Below, piece by piece: positions 30,043-50,100 of a stretch of 64,000 nucleotides of DNA. The stretch comes from Streptomyces sp. NBC_00459 (lineage in GTDB: Bacteria > Actinomycetota > Actinomycetes > Streptomycetales > Streptomycetaceae): assembly GCF_036013955.1 (NCBI RefSeq), contig NZ_CP107903.1, forward strand, positions 1,364,001 to 1,428,000, read 5' to 3'. The notes under the pieces were generated by a model that was not told where the DNA came from, did no database searches, and was given only the letters and a program-made list of their open reading frames with translations. Each line of letters starts with the position of its first letter. Within the stretch, counting starts at the first letter, position 1. The translations under genes were made by a program, and so were the position numbers.

Positions 30043-30470
30043 TCACCCCAGGAAATGGCCAAGAGGCTCCTCGCCAACGGGACAAGGCCGCTCCTGGAGC
30101 AGCAGCCGGGCCGGCGGAGTCCAAGTCTCCTGCGCTGACGAGGGCGTGGATCTCGTGGGCGAGCGGCGTCACGTCGCGGATGGCGACCGTCCACTCGTCC
30201 GCGTAGCGTCGTACGGCCTCACCGGACAGCCCCAGTTGCAAGGACCGGTACGGCAGGGGCCGGAGGCGCAGGTCCCGCTCGGGATCCCACTGCACACGGG
30301 CCGGCGCACGCTTCGACTGGCGCTGCCAGGTAGCTCGGTCGGGGTGCACCCCGCGGACGTAGCCCGACAGGCACGCATGGCGCAGCGCCCACTCGAAGCG
30401 CTCACCGCTGATCTCGACAGCGAGGACAGTCTCCTGCCCGGCGTTCATGCCCCAGCAGCAGCGGTGATAG
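30043..30470 (-). pseudogene. DUF4291 remnant A (C-terminal two thirds, frameshifted)
   Basis: It aligns with the intact DUF4291 protein at 35128 from its GQETVLAIEI region onward: GQETVLAVEI, FEWALRHACLSGYVRGVHPD, ARVQWDPERDLRLRPLPYRS and RYADEWTVAI. The last 20 codons continue only after a frameshift near 30105-30115, where RLLLQERPCPVGEEPLGHFL reads in another frame to a TGA. Homology on the upstream side fades at a YHRCCWG stretch near 30460, so the N-terminal third is missing. Confidence 0.75.
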
Positions 30471-30488
30471 CGGACAGTCGGGATTCCT

Positions 30489-30529
30489 CACTGGCGGCCA
30501 GTTAGCGGGGAGTTATCTGGCCGCCAGTG
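30489..30529. terminator. 13-bp perfect inverted repeat after the GNAT gene
   Basis: CACTGGCGGCCAG (30489-30501) and CTGGCCGCCAGTG (30517-30529) flank a 15-nt loop. It lies 53 nt beyond the GNAT stop on the minus strand, as a terminator would. It also sits just where the DUF4291 remnant A loses homology. Confidence 0.55.
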
Positions 30530-30581
30530 ATCACTCCGGGTGAGCGGGCCCGCGTCGGCTTGCCACGGTGGAGCCCTGGCC

Positions 30582-31343
30582 TCACCGGGCCGCGATGTGC
30601 GCCGCCCCGAACAGGCGCTTGGCCATGCCGAGGCGTTCATACGTGGCGATGGCCGGCGCGTTACCGGTGAGCACCATGAGCGCGGCGCGGCCGTGCTGGT
30701 TGACGAGGGCGTCCACGACGAAGCCGCACACGGCCCGCGCAAGACCCCGCCCGCGGGCGGCAGGGTGGGTGACCACCCCGCCCATGAACCCGCACCCGGC
30801 CGCGGACCACGCGTCCGCCGCCACCGCCAGCGGCTTCGCCCCGACGCTGCCGTCCACCTCGCCGACGACCCCCGCCCAGCGGCGCATGCCCGCGCGTCCC
30901 GGCTGCGCGTAGGAGTCAGGGAAGAAGCGGTCGAACAGCGAGGCCGTCTCCTTCTCCTCGCGGGCGTTCAGCCACCGCACGCCTGCGGCGGCGGCACCGG
31001 ATGGGGACGTGGCCTCCATCCAGAAAAAGTTGTGGACCGGCGCCAGGTTGGGCAACTGCCCAACCAGCGCATCGATCAAGGCAGCTTCCCCCAAGACTCG
31101 GTAGGACGGGCCGATCTCCTCCAGGATCCGCCGGACCAACACGGCCACGTCGACGCCGTCGCCCTTGACCGCAAGCCGGTCCTGTTGAGGGTTCGGGCTC
31201 GCCACCGCCAGCGCCGCGCCGTGGCACCAGGCCCGTACCCCCGACCCCAGGCCGTCACCGCCTTGTCCCTGGGCGGCCCAGACCAGATGTCCGTCGCCGG
31301 CCGCGGCCTGCTCGATATCGCTGAGCCGTGCAAGTTCCTCCAT
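30582..31343 (-). CDS. GNAT-family N-acetyltransferase
   Basis: 253 aa. The C-terminal half has the GNAT acetyl-CoA motif GGVVTHPAARGRGLARAVCG near residue 196 (RGRGLA pyrophosphate loop), followed by NAPAIATYERLGM, the usual final helix. The N-terminal half is unlike well-known subfamilies and may hold the acceptor site. Substrate unknown. ATG at 31343. It lies in the accessory region between DUF4291 remnants. Confidence 0.82.
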   Translation of the reverse strand: MEELARLSDIEQAAAGDGHLVWAAQGQGGDGLGSGVRAWCHGAALAVASPNPQQDRLAVKGDGVDVAVLVRRILEEIGPSYRVLGEAALIDALVGQLPNLAPVHNFFWMEATSPSGAAAAGVRWLNAREEKETASLFDRFFPDSYAQPGRAGMRRWAGVVGEVDGSVGAKPLAVAADAWSAAGCGFMGGVVTHPAARGRGLARAVCGFVVDALVNQHGRAALMVLTGNAPAIATYERLGMAKRLFGAAHIAAR

Positions 31344-31439
31344 ACGCCGTGCTTACCAGGCGTTCTTGGAGGCCCGCTGTGACCCAGCCCTCATCGATCA
31401 CTGCCTGTGATCACGTATCTGGCCGTACTTGGGGAATGT

Positions 31440-31514
31440 GAAGTGGCCGCCGACACAGCGGTACATCATCCATAGGAACGACGGCTTGATCCATATCAAG
31501 CCTTGTTCACAGAC
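31440..31514 (-). pseudogene. DUF4291 remnant B
   Basis: A short piece reading VCEQGLIWIKPSFLWMMYRC then VGGHF. It matches the intact protein at RMTWIKPSFMWMMYRSGWG. Nothing upstream or downstream aligns. It begins at a GTCTGTGAAC sequence shared with the other remnants. Confidence 0.65.
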
Positions 31515-31671
31515 CTCTCTCTGGAGCAAGCCCTCGCTGACATGAATGAAGAGCCCTACGAGCAGCTTTGATGTGTCCCGTCGGTTGGGTCGTCTGCACG
31601 GTCCCGGACACACGTCGGACGATCTTGACAGAGAGGCATCATAGGAGTCCGATTTCGAAGGAGGGACGCCC

Positions 31672-31923
31672 ATGAGACTGGTCTCCGACCCCGGGTCCGG
31701 CGAAGTGGACCTCGCCGCGTCGGCGGATGAGCTGATGCGGTTGGCAAGCGCTGTGGCCCTGGGTGAAGGACTGGTCAGGGCCACCTCCTTGCCGGGCAGC
31801 ACCGCCCTGACCGGGATCCGGGTGAACAAGACTTCCGGCCCTGGTGCCCTTGTCCGCCGGGACGCCGAGCAGCAGATCCTTGTCATCAGTGGTGACTCGG
31901 CAAGCAGGGCAGTACAGCGCTGA
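31672..31923 (+). CDS. Imm32-like immunity protein, probably C-terminally truncated
   Basis: 83 aa: MRLVSDPGSGEVDLAASADE, then RLASAVALGEGLVR, GIRVNKTSGPG and ILVISGDSASRAV. This is the pattern I associate with the Imm32 immunity family of polymorphic-toxin systems. Family members usually continue another 30-40 residues, but here a stop follows RAVQR. A +1 frame just downstream gives AQDGG, similar to the expected continuation, so a frameshift is possible. SD GAAGGAGGG is strong. No toxin gene is adjacent. Confidence 0.5.
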   Translation: MRLVSDPGSGEVDLAASADELMRLASAVALGEGLVRATSLPGSTALTGIRVNKTSGPGALVRRDAEQQILVISGDSASRAVQR

Positions 31924-32442
31924 GCGTCGCTGCCGTTGCTGTGCTCAGGACGGCGGGTGCACAGAGATGCATCACTGCTCGTCGCGACGAAGATCTCTCC
32001 CCGGAGGGAGAGATGTCGAAGGCTCGTACTCCCGCGCATCCGGTCGGGTAGACCTTCGCGACCGGATGCTACGGACCGAGGTCACCGAAGGGGCCGGCTC
32101 CCGCGCGGCCACCCTGGCGATGGTGTTCATGCCCGTCGAATCCACCCAGGCCCGCCGACGAGCCGTTTACGCACCTCACCTCGTCGCTCTCGTCCGTGCC
32201 GGAGCCCGCTTCGAGCGCAGCCACCTCGTCGAACGCCCCGAGAGCCACGTGGCCTGAACGACCTCGATTCATCCACGGATCTTGACTGCAACTCCCCTGC
32301 CCGCGCCGTCCGGGGCAGCAGGCCGACGGGTCAGACCGATGAGTCTGCCGGCTGCCTGAAGTCTTCTTCGTGACATGCCCGCCCCGTCGGTGGATCAGGA
32401 ATCGGCGGGTCCCGGTGTCTTGGAGGAGAGAGGGAGGCCAGG
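31924..32442. other. Low-content stretch with an unrecognised ORF
   Basis: About 520 bp. A plus-strand frame up to 32257 includes MLRTEVTEGAGSRAATLAMV and RRAVYAPHLVALVRAGARFE. Its composition is coding-like but it has no SD and I cannot name it. It could be the tail of a lost gene. The rest holds only the probable promoter of the dihydrofolate-reductase-like gene. Confidence 0.35.
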
Positions 32443-33027
32443 ATGCACAATCCGATTCGGCTGTACATGTCGATGTCGCTCGACGGCTACATCGCCGGGC
32501 CGGACGATCGGCCGGGCCAGGAGCTCGGACGCGACGGCGGGCGGCTTTTCAACTGGCTCGACGACCGGAAGTCCGACGGTCCGAGCGGCCAGGTGTACCG
32601 CGAGGCGCTGGCGACCGGCGCCGTGATTTCCGGCCGACGGACCTTCGAACTCGCCGGGCGCTGGCAGGGCGACCACCACGACGGCGTGCCGATCTTCGTC
32701 CTCACCCACCGCGTGGATGACGGGGACGTGCCACCCGGCCACGCGCGTTTCGTCACCGACGTCGAGGAATGCGCCCGTCAGGCTCGCGCCGCCGCCGGGG
32801 ACCGGCCGGTCATGGTCCATGGGGCGGGAGCGGCCCAAGGGCTTCTCCGAGCCGGGCAGCTGGACGAGATGGAGATCCACCTGATTCCGGTCCTCCTCGG
32901 GGACGGCCGACGGCTGTTCGACCACCTCGGTGGTGATCACATCGAACTCGACCTCGTCCGACGGCTCGAGGATCGAGACGTCACGCACCTCCGCTACCAG
33001 GTGCGCCGCCCCGGAGAGGCCGCATGA
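32443..33027 (+). CDS. Dihydrofolate-reductase-family (RibD C-domain) protein
   Basis: 194 aa. It opens with the typical IRLYMSMSLDGYIAGPDDRP, followed by AVISGRRTFELAGRW and the NADPH-site-like VMVHGAGAAQGLLRAGQLDE, then IHLIPVLLGDGRRLFDHLGG. These are the hallmarks of the RibD/YyaP-type reductases, whose real substrates are mostly unknown. The stop overlaps the VOC gene start as ATGA, so the two form an operon. SD AGGGAGG before the ATG. Confidence 0.87.
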   Translation: MHNPIRLYMSMSLDGYIAGPDDRPGQELGRDGGRLFNWLDDRKSDGPSGQVYREALATGAVISGRRTFELAGRWQGDHHDGVPIFVLTHRVDDGDVPPGHARFVTDVEECARQARAAAGDRPVMVHGAGAAQGLLRAGQLDEMEIHLIPVLLGDGRRLFDHLGGDHIELDLVRRLEDRDVTHLRYQVRRPGEAA

Positions 33028-33437
33028 AGACGCTCTTCGTCTCCTACCGCGTCACCGATCTGGACCGCTCGCTCGGTTTCTACACCGCCTTGGGCTACGG
33101 AGAACTGGGCAGAGTCGAGATCGGCGACGGAAGTCGCCTCGTGATCCTCAAGTTCCCCGGCGAACCGGCGGCCTCGCTCGAACTGGTCCACCGTCCCGCC
33201 GACGGACGTGTCGACGTGGGCAGCGGATTCGACCACCTCGCGATCCAGGTGGACACGCTGACTGTCACCCTGAGGACGCTGGCCGAAGCCGGCCTGGAGC
33301 CGGAGCGTGTTCAGTATCCAGGCGGCCCTCACGGCCCGAAGACGTCGTGGCTCACTGACCCGGACGGTTACCGGATCGAGCTGGTGGAGTGGCCGTTCGG
33401 ACATCCCGACGGCATCACCGCAGCAGACTTCTCCTGA
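33024..33437 (+). CDS. VOC-family (glyoxalase-fold) protein
   Basis: 137 aa. The glyoxalase/bleomycin-resistance fold is shown by SYRVTDLDRSLGFYTALGYG, SGFDHLAIQVDTLTVTLRTL and the C-terminal TSWLTDPDGYRIELVEWP, with metal-ligand positions His and Glu. The order and length fit lactoylglutathione-lyase-like proteins. Whether it is a detoxifying enzyme or a resistance protein is open. It is translationally coupled to the upstream reductase. Confidence 0.87.
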   Translation: MKTLFVSYRVTDLDRSLGFYTALGYGELGRVEIGDGSRLVILKFPGEPAASLELVHRPADGRVDVGSGFDHLAIQVDTLTVTLRTLAEAGLEPERVQYPGGPHGPKTSWLTDPDGYRIELVEWPFGHPDGITAADFS

Positions 33438-33562
33438 GGTGGTCACGGTGAGCGGGGTGGCGACGCTCCCCTCGACGCGGCCGTAGCGCGACGCGCAGCG
33501 TCATTCCCGTCCCCGTCCCACAGGTCTTGTCGGTCGCTCGCCCCGGGGGACGGTACCGCTTC

Positions 33563-33871
33563 TCACAAAAGGCTCTCGTCCCGGACGATCCAACCCTCAC
33601 CCAACTCGCGGCGCAGGACCTCCAATGCCGCATGCGCCTGCTGTTTGAACACTTGAAGTTCCTCGTCGGGCCAAGGAGACGGATCCGGCGGATAGTCCCA
33701 GTCGATCGACGACTGGTACCACTGGCTCAGTCTCGCCAACTCGTTCTGGGTCTCCTGGCTGATCGGCAGGCGCGACAGATCACAGGGGTAGCCGTACGGG
33801 CTGTCCATCTCTTCCGGCCACAGCGGGGTGTCCACACCGGCCTCGAAGAAGAACCGCAGATATTGGATCAT
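33563..33871 (-). CDS. Hypothetical protein, 102 aa
   Basis: It starts MIQYLRFFFEAGVDTPLWPE and contains YPCDLSRLPISQETQNELAR, QWYQSSIDWDYPPDPSPWPD and a helical C-terminus. It is acidic and Trp/Tyr-rich in the middle. The ATG at 33871 has AAGGTG upstream; an open extension to 33928 is not supported. I recall similar proteins in Streptomyces accessory regions but know no function. Confidence 0.65.
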   Translation of the reverse strand: MIQYLRFFFEAGVDTPLWPEEMDSPYGYPCDLSRLPISQETQNELARLSQWYQSSIDWDYPPDPSPWPDEELQVFKQQAHAALEVLRRELGEGWIVRDESLL

Positions 33872-33949
33872 GCCGCACCTTCGCACACGCTTGCCGGTGC
33901 CCCATGCGGCGAACTGTGTCCGGGGCATCCCGTCAGTAAGGCGGTTGGG

Positions 33950-33995
33950 GTCTGTGAACGCGGCTTGATGATCATGTCAAGCCGCGTTCACAGAC
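33950..33995. repeat. Perfect 19-bp inverted repeat related to DUF4291 remnants
   Basis: GTCTGTGAACGCGGCTTGA (33950-33968) and its exact reverse complement (33977-33995) flank TGATCATG. The left half plus centre resembles 35785-35818, and the right half resembles 34960-34985. Both of those lie in DUF4291-derived pieces. It could be a terminator or a recombination product. Confidence 0.7.
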
Positions 33996-34166
33996 GTTTT
34001 CCCAACGGGACAGAACTACGCGCATCGTCCCTCAGCCCCAAAACCCGTTCCGCCTCCCGATCTGACGATCTAGTCTGCTGCTCGATGCTGTGAGCCAAGT
34101 GAAGAGCTCGGGCAGTACTTCTGAGCCGACGGGCACTTGTGCGCGCTCACACAGGAACGGGTGGGG

Positions 34167-34913
34167 ATGAGAGTGGTTCGCCAATCACGGGTCGGCATTG
34201 CTATTGCCATGCTCATGACCTTCTGCGCGCTTTCCGCATGCGAGTCGGGGCAGGGCTCCCGGGCAGGTGCAGCGTCGGAGTCGGAAGAGACCAGGACGGC
34301 CGGCGCAGAGGACAAGCCGTTGGGCAAGGCGGACCTGGAGCGGGTAGCGATCACCGTCGCGGATCTCGACGGCTACGAGGTCGAACAGACCCTGGCTGCT
34401 CCCATGGCGTCTCGCCGGACGGCGGATCCTGCCGAATGCGCGCCCGTCGTTCAGGCGACGGGGGGAAGCAGCGGCTTCGTAGCCACCGCGCGCATCGGCC
34501 GGACGATGTTCCCGAAGGAGCACGGCCCCGGAACCTCCGTGATCCTTGCGTCCCACAGTTCCGGGGACGCCGCTCGGGTGATCGACGCACTCCGCACGGC
34601 CGCCGAGCGATGCAAGACCTTCTTGGACATCGGGGTGGGCTTCCGCTACGACGAGGTCGCACTCCAGCCCGACCCCGGCTACGGCGATGAATCCGTGTCT
34701 CTGCGGCTCACACAACTCGCGGCGTTCGATGAGGACGACGAGCCCGTCCGAGTTCCCTACGCCGTGGTGGCCGTTCGGCAAGGGGCGACGGTCGCCATGT
34801 TCTACGCGTTCAACCGCCCCGGAGCGGCAAGGTCCAAGGGGCCGGCTGTCGTACCGGAAGAGATCATCAAGACACAGATGGACAGGATTGGTAATCCGAC
34901 GACCTCCAAGTGA
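34167..34913 (+). CDS. Lipoprotein, function unknown
   Basis: 248 aa. The signal peptide (RQSRVGIAIAMLMTFCALSAC) ends in the lipobox ALSAC, so it should be attached to the outside of the membrane. The mature part has AITVADLDGYEVEQTLAA, a CAPVVQATGG stretch and SVILASHSSGDAARVIDALR. This resembles the sensor-type PknH-like or lipoprotein domain seen in many Streptomyces lipoproteins. Start ATG 34167 with GGGG upstream. No operon partner. Confidence 0.78.
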   Translation: MRVVRQSRVGIAIAMLMTFCALSACESGQGSRAGAASESEETRTAGAEDKPLGKADLERVAITVADLDGYEVEQTLAAPMASRRTADPAECAPVVQATGGSSGFVATARIGRTMFPKEHGPGTSVILASHSSGDAARVIDALRTAAERCKTFLDIGVGFRYDEVALQPDPGYGDESVSLRLTQLAAFDEDDEPVRVPYAVVAVRQGATVAMFYAFNRPGAARSKGPAVVPEEIIKTQMDRIGNPTTSK

Positions 34914-34945
34914 TCTTAGGAACGTACCGACTTGAGGTCCGCAGG

Positions 34946-34984
34946 GAACGACGGTGAGACCCATGTCAAGCCGTCCTCACAGAC
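34946..34984 (-). pseudogene. DUF4291 remnant D
   Basis: A 13-codon minus-strand piece reading VCEDGLTWVSPSF. It parallels VCEQGLIWIKPSF of remnant B and MTWIKPSF of the intact gene. It begins at GTCTGTGAGG. The piece is too short to stand alone; it is called because it shares the breakpoint motif with the other remnants. Confidence 0.45.
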
Positions 34985-35127
34985 TTTTCGTGAGCCAAGC
35001 GCCACGCATCCCTGGCCGCACGCTGGTTGGCCCGCGCGGGCGACTGCCTGCCGCGCGTGGCCGGCCTGCTCCGTCGCGTCGCGCAACGGTCGAAAATCGG
35101 TGGTCACCTGAGTCGGCCGACCCCACG

Positions 35128-35730
35128 ATGTACGCCATGGAAGAACCGCACCGCAGGATCCGCGCGCTCCACACAGCATCCACGATCACCGTCTACCAGG
35201 CGTACTCCCCTGAGATCGGACTGCCCGCCATCCGAGACGGCGGCTTTCCCGCCGCGTGGAAGCCGGGCCGCATGACGTGGATCAAGCCCAGTTTCATGTG
35301 GATGATGTACCGCTCCGGCTGGGGCACGAAGGAGGGTCAGGAGACCGTCCTCGCCATCGAGATCACTCGCGACGGCTTCGAGTGGGCGCTGCGCCATGCC
35401 TGCCTGGCGGGTTACATCCAGGGACTGCATTCCGATCGCGGCGCCTGGCAGCGGGACCTCAAGCACGCACCGGCCCGTGTCCAGTGGGATCCCGAACGCG
35501 ATCTGCACCTGCGTCCCCTACCGCACCGCTCCTTGCAACTGGGGCTCTCGGGTGAGGCATCATCGCGTTACGCGGACGAGTGGATCATGTCCATCAGTGA
35601 CGTGACTCCGCTCGCCAACGAGATCCACGCACTCGTCAGGGACGGCGAACTGGATGCAGCCACCCGCCTGCTCCCTCAGGAGCGGGGGTACCCCGCTGGT
35701 GAAGAGCTACTCGCCCACCTGCGTCCCTGA
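35128..35730 (+). CDS. DUF4291-domain protein, intact
   Basis: About 200 aa. The full domain is present: RRIRALHTASTITVYQAYSP, then GFPAAWKPGRMTWIKPSFMW and MMYRSGWGTKEGQETVLAIE. The C-terminal half has GFEWALRHACLAGYIQGLHS, ARVQWDPERDLHLRPLPHRS and SSRYADEWIMSISDV. The function of DUF4291 is not established. ATG 35128 (MYAMEEPH) or 35137 are both possible. It is surrounded by at least four fragments of the same gene, so it appears to be the surviving copy of a repeatedly duplicated locus. Confidence 0.85.
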   Translation: MYAMEEPHRRIRALHTASTITVYQAYSPEIGLPAIRDGGFPAAWKPGRMTWIKPSFMWMMYRSGWGTKEGQETVLAIEITRDGFEWALRHACLAGYIQGLHSDRGAWQRDLKHAPARVQWDPERDLHLRPLPHRSLQLGLSGEASSRYADEWIMSISDVTPLANEIHALVRDGELDAATRLLPQERGYPAGEELLAHLRP

Positions 35731-35767
35731 CCGGCTGTCCGGCACGACGGCTGGCATCACCCCCGGG

Positions 35768-35991
35768 TCACATGGCGGAAAAGGCCTGTGAGCGCGGCTT
35801 GATGACCCATGTCATACGGTCCCGCTGCCACGCCGCCGGAAACCGCCCCTCCCGGGCCACCGCGAGCCCGATCTGCGGATCGTGGGCCTGATAGACGGTC
35901 ACCGTGGACGCCGTGTGGAGGGCACGTACGCGGAACTTGGGTTCCTGCTCGGGGGGTGCATCGGAAACACCGACTGTCTGATCGTTCACGC
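35768..35991 (-). pseudogene. DUF4291 remnant C (N-terminal part)
   Basis: It reads RVRALHTASTVTVYQAHDPQ, then GRFPAAWQRDRMTWVIKP, matching residues 7-50 of the intact protein. It then breaks at the TGTGAGCGCGGCTTGA motif into RSQAFSAM and a stop. An in-frame GTG at 35991 could still start it, giving a 74-aa product, so expression as a short protein is possible. It faces the intact gene tail to tail. Confidence 0.7.
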
Positions 35992-49533: not shown

Positions 49534-49859
49534 CCCTGCCCAAATCGTCGCCAGGCACGTGCCCTTGACCCGCGGATCGTGGCCGCGCGGTCCGACGCGG
49601 GCATGGAGCTGGGTCGCAGGACCGGACGGGGAACTCACCTGCATGGCCAGGATCGAACCTCCAGGCGGGACCGGCCCGAGGGACCCGGACCGGACCGCAC
49701 CGCCGGTCGAGGGGTCCGGCTGCTGTTCTCGGGGACCGGCCGGGAAACACGGGTGCGGCGTTTCCCGCCCGCGAGGCGCTTCAAGCACTCCGAACGCGTG
49801 TCCCTCCTCACCATCCGAATGCCGGACGTGATCCCGCGCCCGGGAGGACTGCCCCGTAG
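49534..49859. other. Intergenic region before the metE riboswitch
   Basis: About 325 bp without a supported gene. It must contain the metE promoter. No motif stands out. Confidence 0.4.
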
Positions 49860-50085
49860 GCTGCCGGGTGCAGCTGGTTCGCCCCGTCCGCCAGGCGGGA
49901 TGCGTCGTAAGAGGGAACCCGGTGGGAATCCGGGACTGCCCCGCAGCGGTGAGCGAGAACGACCGCCGTCATACGCACTGGGTCCGGTGAACAGGGTCTG
50001 GGAAGCGACGGCCAGTAGGTTGTCCTCCGTAGTCGATACGAGGGCGTGCTCGCGAGTCCGAAGACCTGCCCGTTGCCCGCGCACG
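49860..50085 (+). ncRNA. Cobalamin riboswitch upstream of metE
   Basis: Conserved boxes of the AdoCbl riboswitch are seen in order. They are AAGAGGGAACCCGGTGGGAA with TCCGGGACTGCCCCGCAGCG at about 49908-49950, ACGACCGCCGTCATACG, CTGGGAAGCGACGGCCAGTA near 50000 and GAGTCCGAAGACCTGCCCG near 50055. It precedes the B12-independent methionine synthase gene, which B12 should switch off. It is the classical arrangement in Streptomyces. Confidence 0.95.
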
Positions 50086-50100
50086 ACCGTTCGTGCGCGG
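50077..50100 (+). promoter_or_regulatory. Hairpin after the riboswitch (expression platform candidate)
   Basis: CCGCGCACGA and TCGTGCGCGG form a perfect 10-bp stem with loop CCGT. It starts within the last bases of the aptamer, so aptamer folding and this stem may compete. No U-tract follows. Confidence 0.6.

Follow-up and report, generated by a model that had tools for sequence, protein, structure and literature searches.

An integrase-less array of gene cassettes within a DUF4291 gene of Streptomyces, probably inserted by a large serine integrase

A 64,000-nt stretch of the 9.76-Mb genome of Streptomyces sp. NBC_00459 (NZ_CP107903.1, positions 1,364,001–1,428,000; hereafter the window) carries a series of gene cassettes with an imperfect palindrome of about 47 bp between them. 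This array, 4.3 kb long, lies between two fragments of DUF4291 genes (C and B, Table 1), one ending and the other beginning at one DUF4291 codon motif. This array, which encodes no integrase, was quite probably inserted into DUF4291 by site-specific recombination, the likely enzyme being a large serine integrase of the type carried by actinomycete integrative and conjugative elements (AICEs). A preliminary description of the window had recognized one intact and at least four broken copies of the gene. A Pfam search confirms the intact gene (PF14124, 242.9 bits) and fragments A, B and C, and a whole-genome search with PF14124 retrieves these same four places and no further one, B scoring there 24.8 bits, below the cut-off. 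The remaining fragment, D, is a degenerate recombination site, and a site of this type borders the same cassette in two other loci (L138 and L143). Fragment C is 87% identical to the intact native DUF4291 of a relative (L146) and is thus the orthologous N-terminal half. Fragment A shares 73–74% identity with the native gene although its flanks are 88–92% identical to those of relatives; on these identities, it is derived from a second, diverged DUF4291 gene, to which fragment B probably belongs. As judged from these comparisons, the locus comprises two broken DUF4291 genes and one intact gene carried by a cassette rather than four broken copies.

The motif previously noticed where the fragments break is real, as five matches with up to three mismatches are found in the window versus 0.07 expected. 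It is one arm of the palindrome, which is complete at 33950–33995, with fully complementary 19-bp arms, and present as half copies near 31.5, 34.96 and 35.8 kb. The 17-nt core of the motif, with up to two mismatches, has four matches in the whole genome, exclusively at the window locus; at three mismatches, nine matches occur elsewhere in the genome and a reversed control pattern gives 38 in all.

Relatives provide a precise empty site as well as other states of the same array. In L146 (genome G264), an intact and uninterrupted DUF4291 gene occupies the window's own locus. In L138 (genome G323), the sequences on both sides of a 7.2-kb array match L146, where they overlap by 12 bp, TGACRTGGRTCA. 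L138 lies at the same locus as the window array (flanks about 92% identical) and has three array blocks in common with it at 90–97% identity, but holds two cassettes more; the Imm32 block, shortened in the window, is found in L138 on the other side of its neighbour block. In many genomes, DUF4291 is split at the same codons with cargo between its halves, this cargo being a single unit in L149, L152, L153 and L155. Between loci, homologous stretches end at most 30 bp from a site in 478 of 1611 cases, versus 80 of 1611 random positions (the pairs compared overlap and are not independent). Sequence comparisons therefore demonstrate that cassettes are gained, lost and reordered at sites. The cassettes are also directional: all sites share one orientation in 34 of the 35 loci that have two or more sites, and the orientation of the gene relative to the site is constant in 11 of the 13 clusters with at least three members. 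The two exceptions are the DUF4291 cluster, which includes two split target genes, and a RibD-like cluster with two members in each orientation.

A sequence model built from 36 sites (threshold E ≤ 0.001) matches 66 of 392 Streptomyces genomes, and the motif with one mismatch allowed is present in 31 of 295, as at least two copies in 13 and as a single copy in 18. Most of 20 regions fetched have a palindrome every 0.4–6 kb with genes in between, while L086, L091, L094 and L096 have one copy or merely weak matches; the median spacing of sites is 1.4 kb (n = 83). Over 58 loci, the spacer is 9 bp long in 61 of 63 full sites (2–16 bp allowed), that of the window being 8 bp and one other 10 bp. In the same loci, 20 of 32 right half-sites directly follow a DUF4291 N-terminal half ending at profile positions 44–52, and a C-terminal half that starts at positions 25–48 comes after 20 of the 41 left half-sites. 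DUF4291 itself, which matches over the cut-off in 233 of 295 Streptomyces genomes and is split in some of them, is thus not retained by every relative as one stable copy. A draw across the phylum gave sites in 5 of 246 genomes, four from Streptomyces (including the present one) and one outside with a weak match (21.6 bits); a draw within the family gave 12 of 200, eight Streptomyces and four members of a second genus with left half-sites. Among plasmids, the site was found on one megaplasmid, the 970-kb S. cadmiisoli plasmid NZ_CP030074, as a lone full cassette site (L312, 9001–9039) that lies away from any annotated DUF4291. No site was found in the phages searched or, using the exact site pattern, in viral contigs. 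Single full sites without an adjoining split DUF4291 occur in L086, L145, L160 and L161 (L145 has an intact gene), and could possibly be secondary insertion sites or remnants.

The arms of the 36 sites remain largely complementary but vary independently: at none of 25 positions does the number of complementary pairs depart from expectation by more than three. The dyad thus most likely works as double-stranded DNA, and a hairpin or RNA reading of the palindrome is disfavoured by the same absence of covariation. Where cassettes have different neighbours (67 pairs sharing the cassette start and 22 sharing the end), linkage to the cassette breaks off within the spacer, in the interval from about −7 to +2. 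Within this spacer, a T is conserved in 34 of 36 sites and a G in all 36, and the bases beside them vary. A serine integrase with a two-base crossover needs conservation of this extent, whereas a tyrosine recombinase would need more. The conserved T and G fit a serine integrase rather than a tyrosine recombinase, and the crossover most likely occurs at this central TG.

One family of serine integrases has DUF4291 as its own target. In L318, which belongs to the second genus, a serine recombinase of 465 aa starts 20 bp beyond a DUF4291 N-terminal half. Used as a query against the 392 Streptomyces genomes, this integrase has matches with E ≤ 1e-70 in 31 of them. All seven copies with at least 75% identity lie 19–127 bp from a DUF4291 N-terminal half (the copy of L349 being partial and that of L351 broken), and the family search gave two copies at ≥92% identity, one of them L318 itself, in the same position, i.e. 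9/9 in total. By comparison, none of the 40 examined copies with ≤66% identity had such a half within about 1.5 kb on each side; one further match (G253) lay outside the examined set. Decayed copies also adjoin the N-terminal half in L319 and L321. The corresponding elements, about 6.5–19 kb long, have the integrase at one end, inside DUF4291 (L358, L359, L360/L361, L362/L363, L364 and L318), and a left half-site followed by the DUF4291 C-terminal half at the other. The integrase has Resolvase, Recombinase and zinc-ribbon domains, the last one scoring over the cut-off in L358 and just under it in L318. FtsK-type genes were found in L358 and L364, the two elements scanned, and RepSA in L364, the sole element scanned for it. 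The features that define AICEs were thus found: an integrase next to an att site, RepSA-type replication (L364) and an FtsK/SpoIIIE transfer gene (L358 and L364). The left arm of the elements resembles the cassette arm, while their right half lacks three nucleotides present in cassette sites. Both kinds of structures meet in some genomes: G306 holds an integrase element and a one-unit array, five of the 66 site-matching genomes have an intact integrase element (in G316, the only match is the half-site of that element), and L319, the integrase of which is decayed, carries beside attR a gene whose product shares 68–74% identity with a protein that recurs in eight site-bearing loci.

Taken together, these data suggest the following model. 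The cassettes are bounded by the directly repeated dyad site of about 47 bp, and the chromosomal target is the run of DUF4291 codons that encodes M-T-W-[IV]-K-P-S. At its two ends, an array has junctions that are gene/site hybrids (attL and attR), and its inner sites are site–site, i.e. attP-like. The large serine integrase of the AICE-type elements, which uses the same position in DUF4291 and similar arms, would move the cassettes by a crossover at the central TG, and the cassettes would be integrase-less satellites of this integrase in an integron-like arrangement. We infer that the DUF4291 integrase, or a close relative of it, acts in trans on cassettes that travel as circles. A broader proposal is more tentative, its chances being a little under even: Streptomyces would possess a serine-integrase analogue of integrons, in which circles bearing an attP-type site insert in a fixed direction into DUF4291 or into existing sites, giving rearranged arrays in which immunity, defence-like and orphan genes are accompanied by a copy that replaces the interrupted gene. 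The half-site of cassettes, which is 3 nt longer, may permit the growth of arrays site by site.

Several observations weigh against the model of cassettes moved by the AICE integrase. No recombinase was found among the 60 of 95 cassette cluster representatives that were scanned, nor between sites by phmmer, the matches lying 0.6–6.2 kb from the nearest site. In the genome of NBC_00459, there is no recombinase near the locus and no close homologue of the DUF4291 integrase. A strict criterion leaves 12 of the 32 right half-sites and 21 of the 41 left ones in the 58 loci without a DUF4291 half. Recombination between two attP sites is a non-standard reaction for serine integrases, which leaves the growth of arrays unexplained. 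The element site pieced together from the ends has a 6-bp spacer, versus 9 bp in 61 of 63 cassette sites, and sites occur in 66 of 392 genomes as compared with 7 of 392 for the close integrase. The 3-nt difference between the two sites could mean that another integrase is at work, and both this difference and the disparity in numbers of genomes speak for a different integrase, specific for the site with a 9-bp spacer, as the one that moves the cassettes, the AICE integrase being a mere relative that uses the same target. We nevertheless regard this alternative as rather unlikely, given that the AICE integrase and the cassettes share the same target codons and similar arms and that the L319 gene beside attR is related to a recurrent cassette protein. 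Tyrosine recombinases of ten site-bearing genomes and resolvases of five were also searched, and none lay near an array among the matches listed.

Other recombinase genes were noticed at some loci. Directly behind the split DUF4291 C-terminal half of L139 (979–6449) lie AICE-like genes with a different serine integrase; this AICE was set aside, as its integrase is a distant relative (108 bits) and it is apparently a neighbour by chance. In L224 (9201–12261), AICE-like integrase and replication genes lie by an msrA-like fragment (identified by eye), 2.7 kb from a cassette site, and msrA may be the target of this element. Three tyrosine recombinase matches in tandem in G323 (C565, 53710–56062) resemble a recombinase-trio element.

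Formally, the junctions could be read as inverted repeats with a 9-bp stretch of the gene duplicated on either side. The cassettes would then be non-autonomous transposons resembling miniature inverted-repeat transposable elements, with terminal inverted repeats of about 19 bp, that always duplicate the same 9-bp target, and adjacent insertions would generate the palindromes. This is improbable. A DDE transposon that duplicates its target would leave copies of the host target as spacers within an array. Spacer identity averages 4.54 of 6 positions within arrays (181 pairs, all equal in 18%) and 4.49 between arrays (7694 pairs, 13%); as spacers are hardly array-specific, duplication of a target by a transposase is disfavoured. 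Furthermore, no transposase was found among the 60 scanned cassette proteins, and an integrase is present at the very target.

Cassettes of one to few genes, directly repeated sites and the lack of a known family for half of the scanned proteins recall integrons, in which an IntI tyrosine integrase would act on attC-like hairpins in single-stranded form. However, the integron integrase model TIGR02249 scored over the cut-off in none of 23 site-bearing genomes, 21 of which, like 14 of 14 controls, have just weaker matches to general tyrosine recombinases; in addition, the arms have no compensatory changes and the crossover maps to the central spacer. True integron cassettes are thus very improbable. 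Least credible is the initial idea of repeated duplication and decay of DUF4291, which is refuted as the main origin of B, C and D. Although fragment A is a genuine second, diverged copy and L146 and L138 also hold decayed extra pieces, Streptomyces loci throughout the genus have one and the same break point and site, with cargo between the halves, and there is a precise empty site.

Gene content was examined by a Pfam scan of the 60 representatives mentioned above, with gene calls from a simple script. No Pfam match (E ≤ 0.001) was obtained for 30 of them, while the others include Imm32, SUKH-1, AbiEi/AbiEii, Mrr+TerD, DUF3885, NB-ARC/TPR, AlkZ and hydrolases; some of these are located where neighbouring sites are far apart and may not belong to cassettes. 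NCBIfam gave no match for ten orphan cassette proteins. A defence library applied to ten proteins matched the Mrr-TerD cassette with type IV restriction and gave two weak or generic matches, seven proteins being without match. The resemblance to turnover at immunity loci suggested in the preliminary description therefore holds for the turnover itself and for the presence of genes of immunity or toxin–antitoxin type (Imm32, SUKH-1 and AbiEi/AbiEii) among cassettes or between sites, but its mechanism appears to be site-specific insertion rather than duplication and loss. In L154 (3049–7943; G280), a stretch with Mrr/TerD and AbiEi/AbiEii lies between two DUF4291 C-terminal halves, beside an integrase-bearing element.

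The DUF4291 genes carried by cassettes have a common background. In twelve such genes, a site lies 79–87 bp behind the last aligned codon, and all 12 fall within one clade of 23 in a 114-sequence tree (support 100/100), whereas the native gene of L146 is placed elsewhere. They do not form a clade by themselves (six label changes), and 7 of the 11 other members of the clade have a site nearby. The intact DUF4291 of the window is most likely, by its place among these sequences, such a mobile homologue and not the native gene, and may stand in for the interrupted one. A recoded rescue of the target was considered, as the serine codon at the target is AGY in 12 of 12 cassette-borne genes versus 24 of the 100 other intact genes in which the target can be read. 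It is not claimed, as the split target of L138 also has AGC and as the 12 copies belong to one clade, so that ancestry may be responsible. An AlphaFold model of DUF4291 (mean predicted local distance difference test score 87.7) has as its best structural match the C-terminal ADP-ribosyltransferase domain of RhsP2 (7rt7; Z 11.2, root mean square deviation 3.1 over 129 residues), followed by other ADP-ribosyltransferases (Z 5–6). The predicted fold is thus like that of ADP-ribosyltransferases, a likeness that concerns the fold and not the function. DUF4291 differs from the RhsP2 toxin domain by an identity of 9% and by being a common chromosomal gene of Streptomyces. DUF4291 is named in none of the papers searched.

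Among the ways in which bacteria acquire small adaptive genes, the best known is cassette shuffling of the integron type. Like integrons, the arrays described here consist of small directional cassettes in tandem, mostly of genes of unknown role, with a repeated recombination site; they differ by the absence of an IntI over the cut-off, by arms without covariation, by a crossover in the central spacer and by a likely serine integrase. A 2008 survey noted that 37 complete actinobacterial genomes lacked integrons (PMC2426708). AICEs that have a serine integrase and reside in protein-coding genes are known (PMC3218068), and the candidate helper elements are similar to them in their serine integrase at one end, inside DUF4291, and in the FtsK and RepSA genes of those scanned; by contrast, the gene list and the genome recombinase searches give no integrase, replication or transfer gene for the window array. 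Having attL and attR at its ends and no integrase or transfer gene, the latter shares two features of cis-mobilizable elements (CIMEs). Like these products of the tandem accretion of integrase-less islands, as presented in part of PMC5704250, it keeps att sites, lacks integration and transfer genes and has tandem units; its units, however, comprise one to few genes, are several per array and are shared between genomes in other contexts. In these respects, the units are more like integron cassettes. In the titles or abstract openings among the matches listed by a literature search, no such arrays are described. About one in six of the Streptomyces genomes examined carries sites of a cassette system whose chemistry is different and probably based on a serine integrase. 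If this is true, the 47-bp site would be a marker for finding such cassettes, the DUF4291 target and the site could serve Streptomyces engineering as a new attB/attP pair, and the idea of cassette movement would be directly testable.

Table 1. Features of the DUF4291 locus in the window (window coordinates).
Feature	Position	Strand	Remarks
Outer junction 1 (attL-like)	35776–35814	-	DUF4291 N-terminal half joined to right half of site
Fragment C	35795–35991	-	PF14124 43.3 bits, profile 2–46; N-terminal half of native DUF4291, the putative insertion target
Intact DUF4291, carried as cassette	35128–35730	+	3' end 82 bp from a site; Pfam match and tree clade
Fragment D	34945–34988	-	Degenerate recombination site inside the array, separating two cassettes
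Cassette gene, lipoprotein-like by eye	34167–34913	+	Without Pfam family; cassette also present in L138 and L143
Full internal site	33944–34000	-	19-bp arms GTCTGTGAACGCGGCTTGA / TCAAGCCGCGTTCACAGAC, 8-bp spacer
Cassette gene	33563–33871	-	No Pfam family; same cluster in 5 loci
Cassette gene, glyoxalase/VOC-like	33024–33437	+	Named by eye, without Pfam scan
Cassette gene, RibD_C-like	32443–33027	+	Pfam run on cluster mate in L082
Truncated Imm32-type gene	31672–31923	+	Longer L138 homologue matches PF15566; window piece without Pfam match
Outer junction 2 (attR-like)	31475–31519	-	Left half of site joined to DUF4291 C-terminal side
Fragment B	31440–31499	-	PF14124 28.7 bits (cut-off 27), profile 41–56; start of C-terminal half
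Separate insertion	30470–31440	.	0.97 kb between B and A; GNAT acetyltransferase gene 30582–31343 (-)
Fragment A	30066–30466	-	PF14124 120.7 bits over profile 61–170, full extent profile 53–170; assigned by identity to a second, diverged DUF4291 gene

The GNAT stretch has no counterpart in L138 and L146, the two relatives compared, and a 24-bp inverted repeat (30481–30537) is found at one of its edges. By this comparison, it is a second kind of insertion adjoining the array. In a search of the window, L078 and L079 against Rfam at the gathering score, the only family found was that of cobalamin riboswitches, including RF00174 (85 bits) at 49858–50087 of the window.

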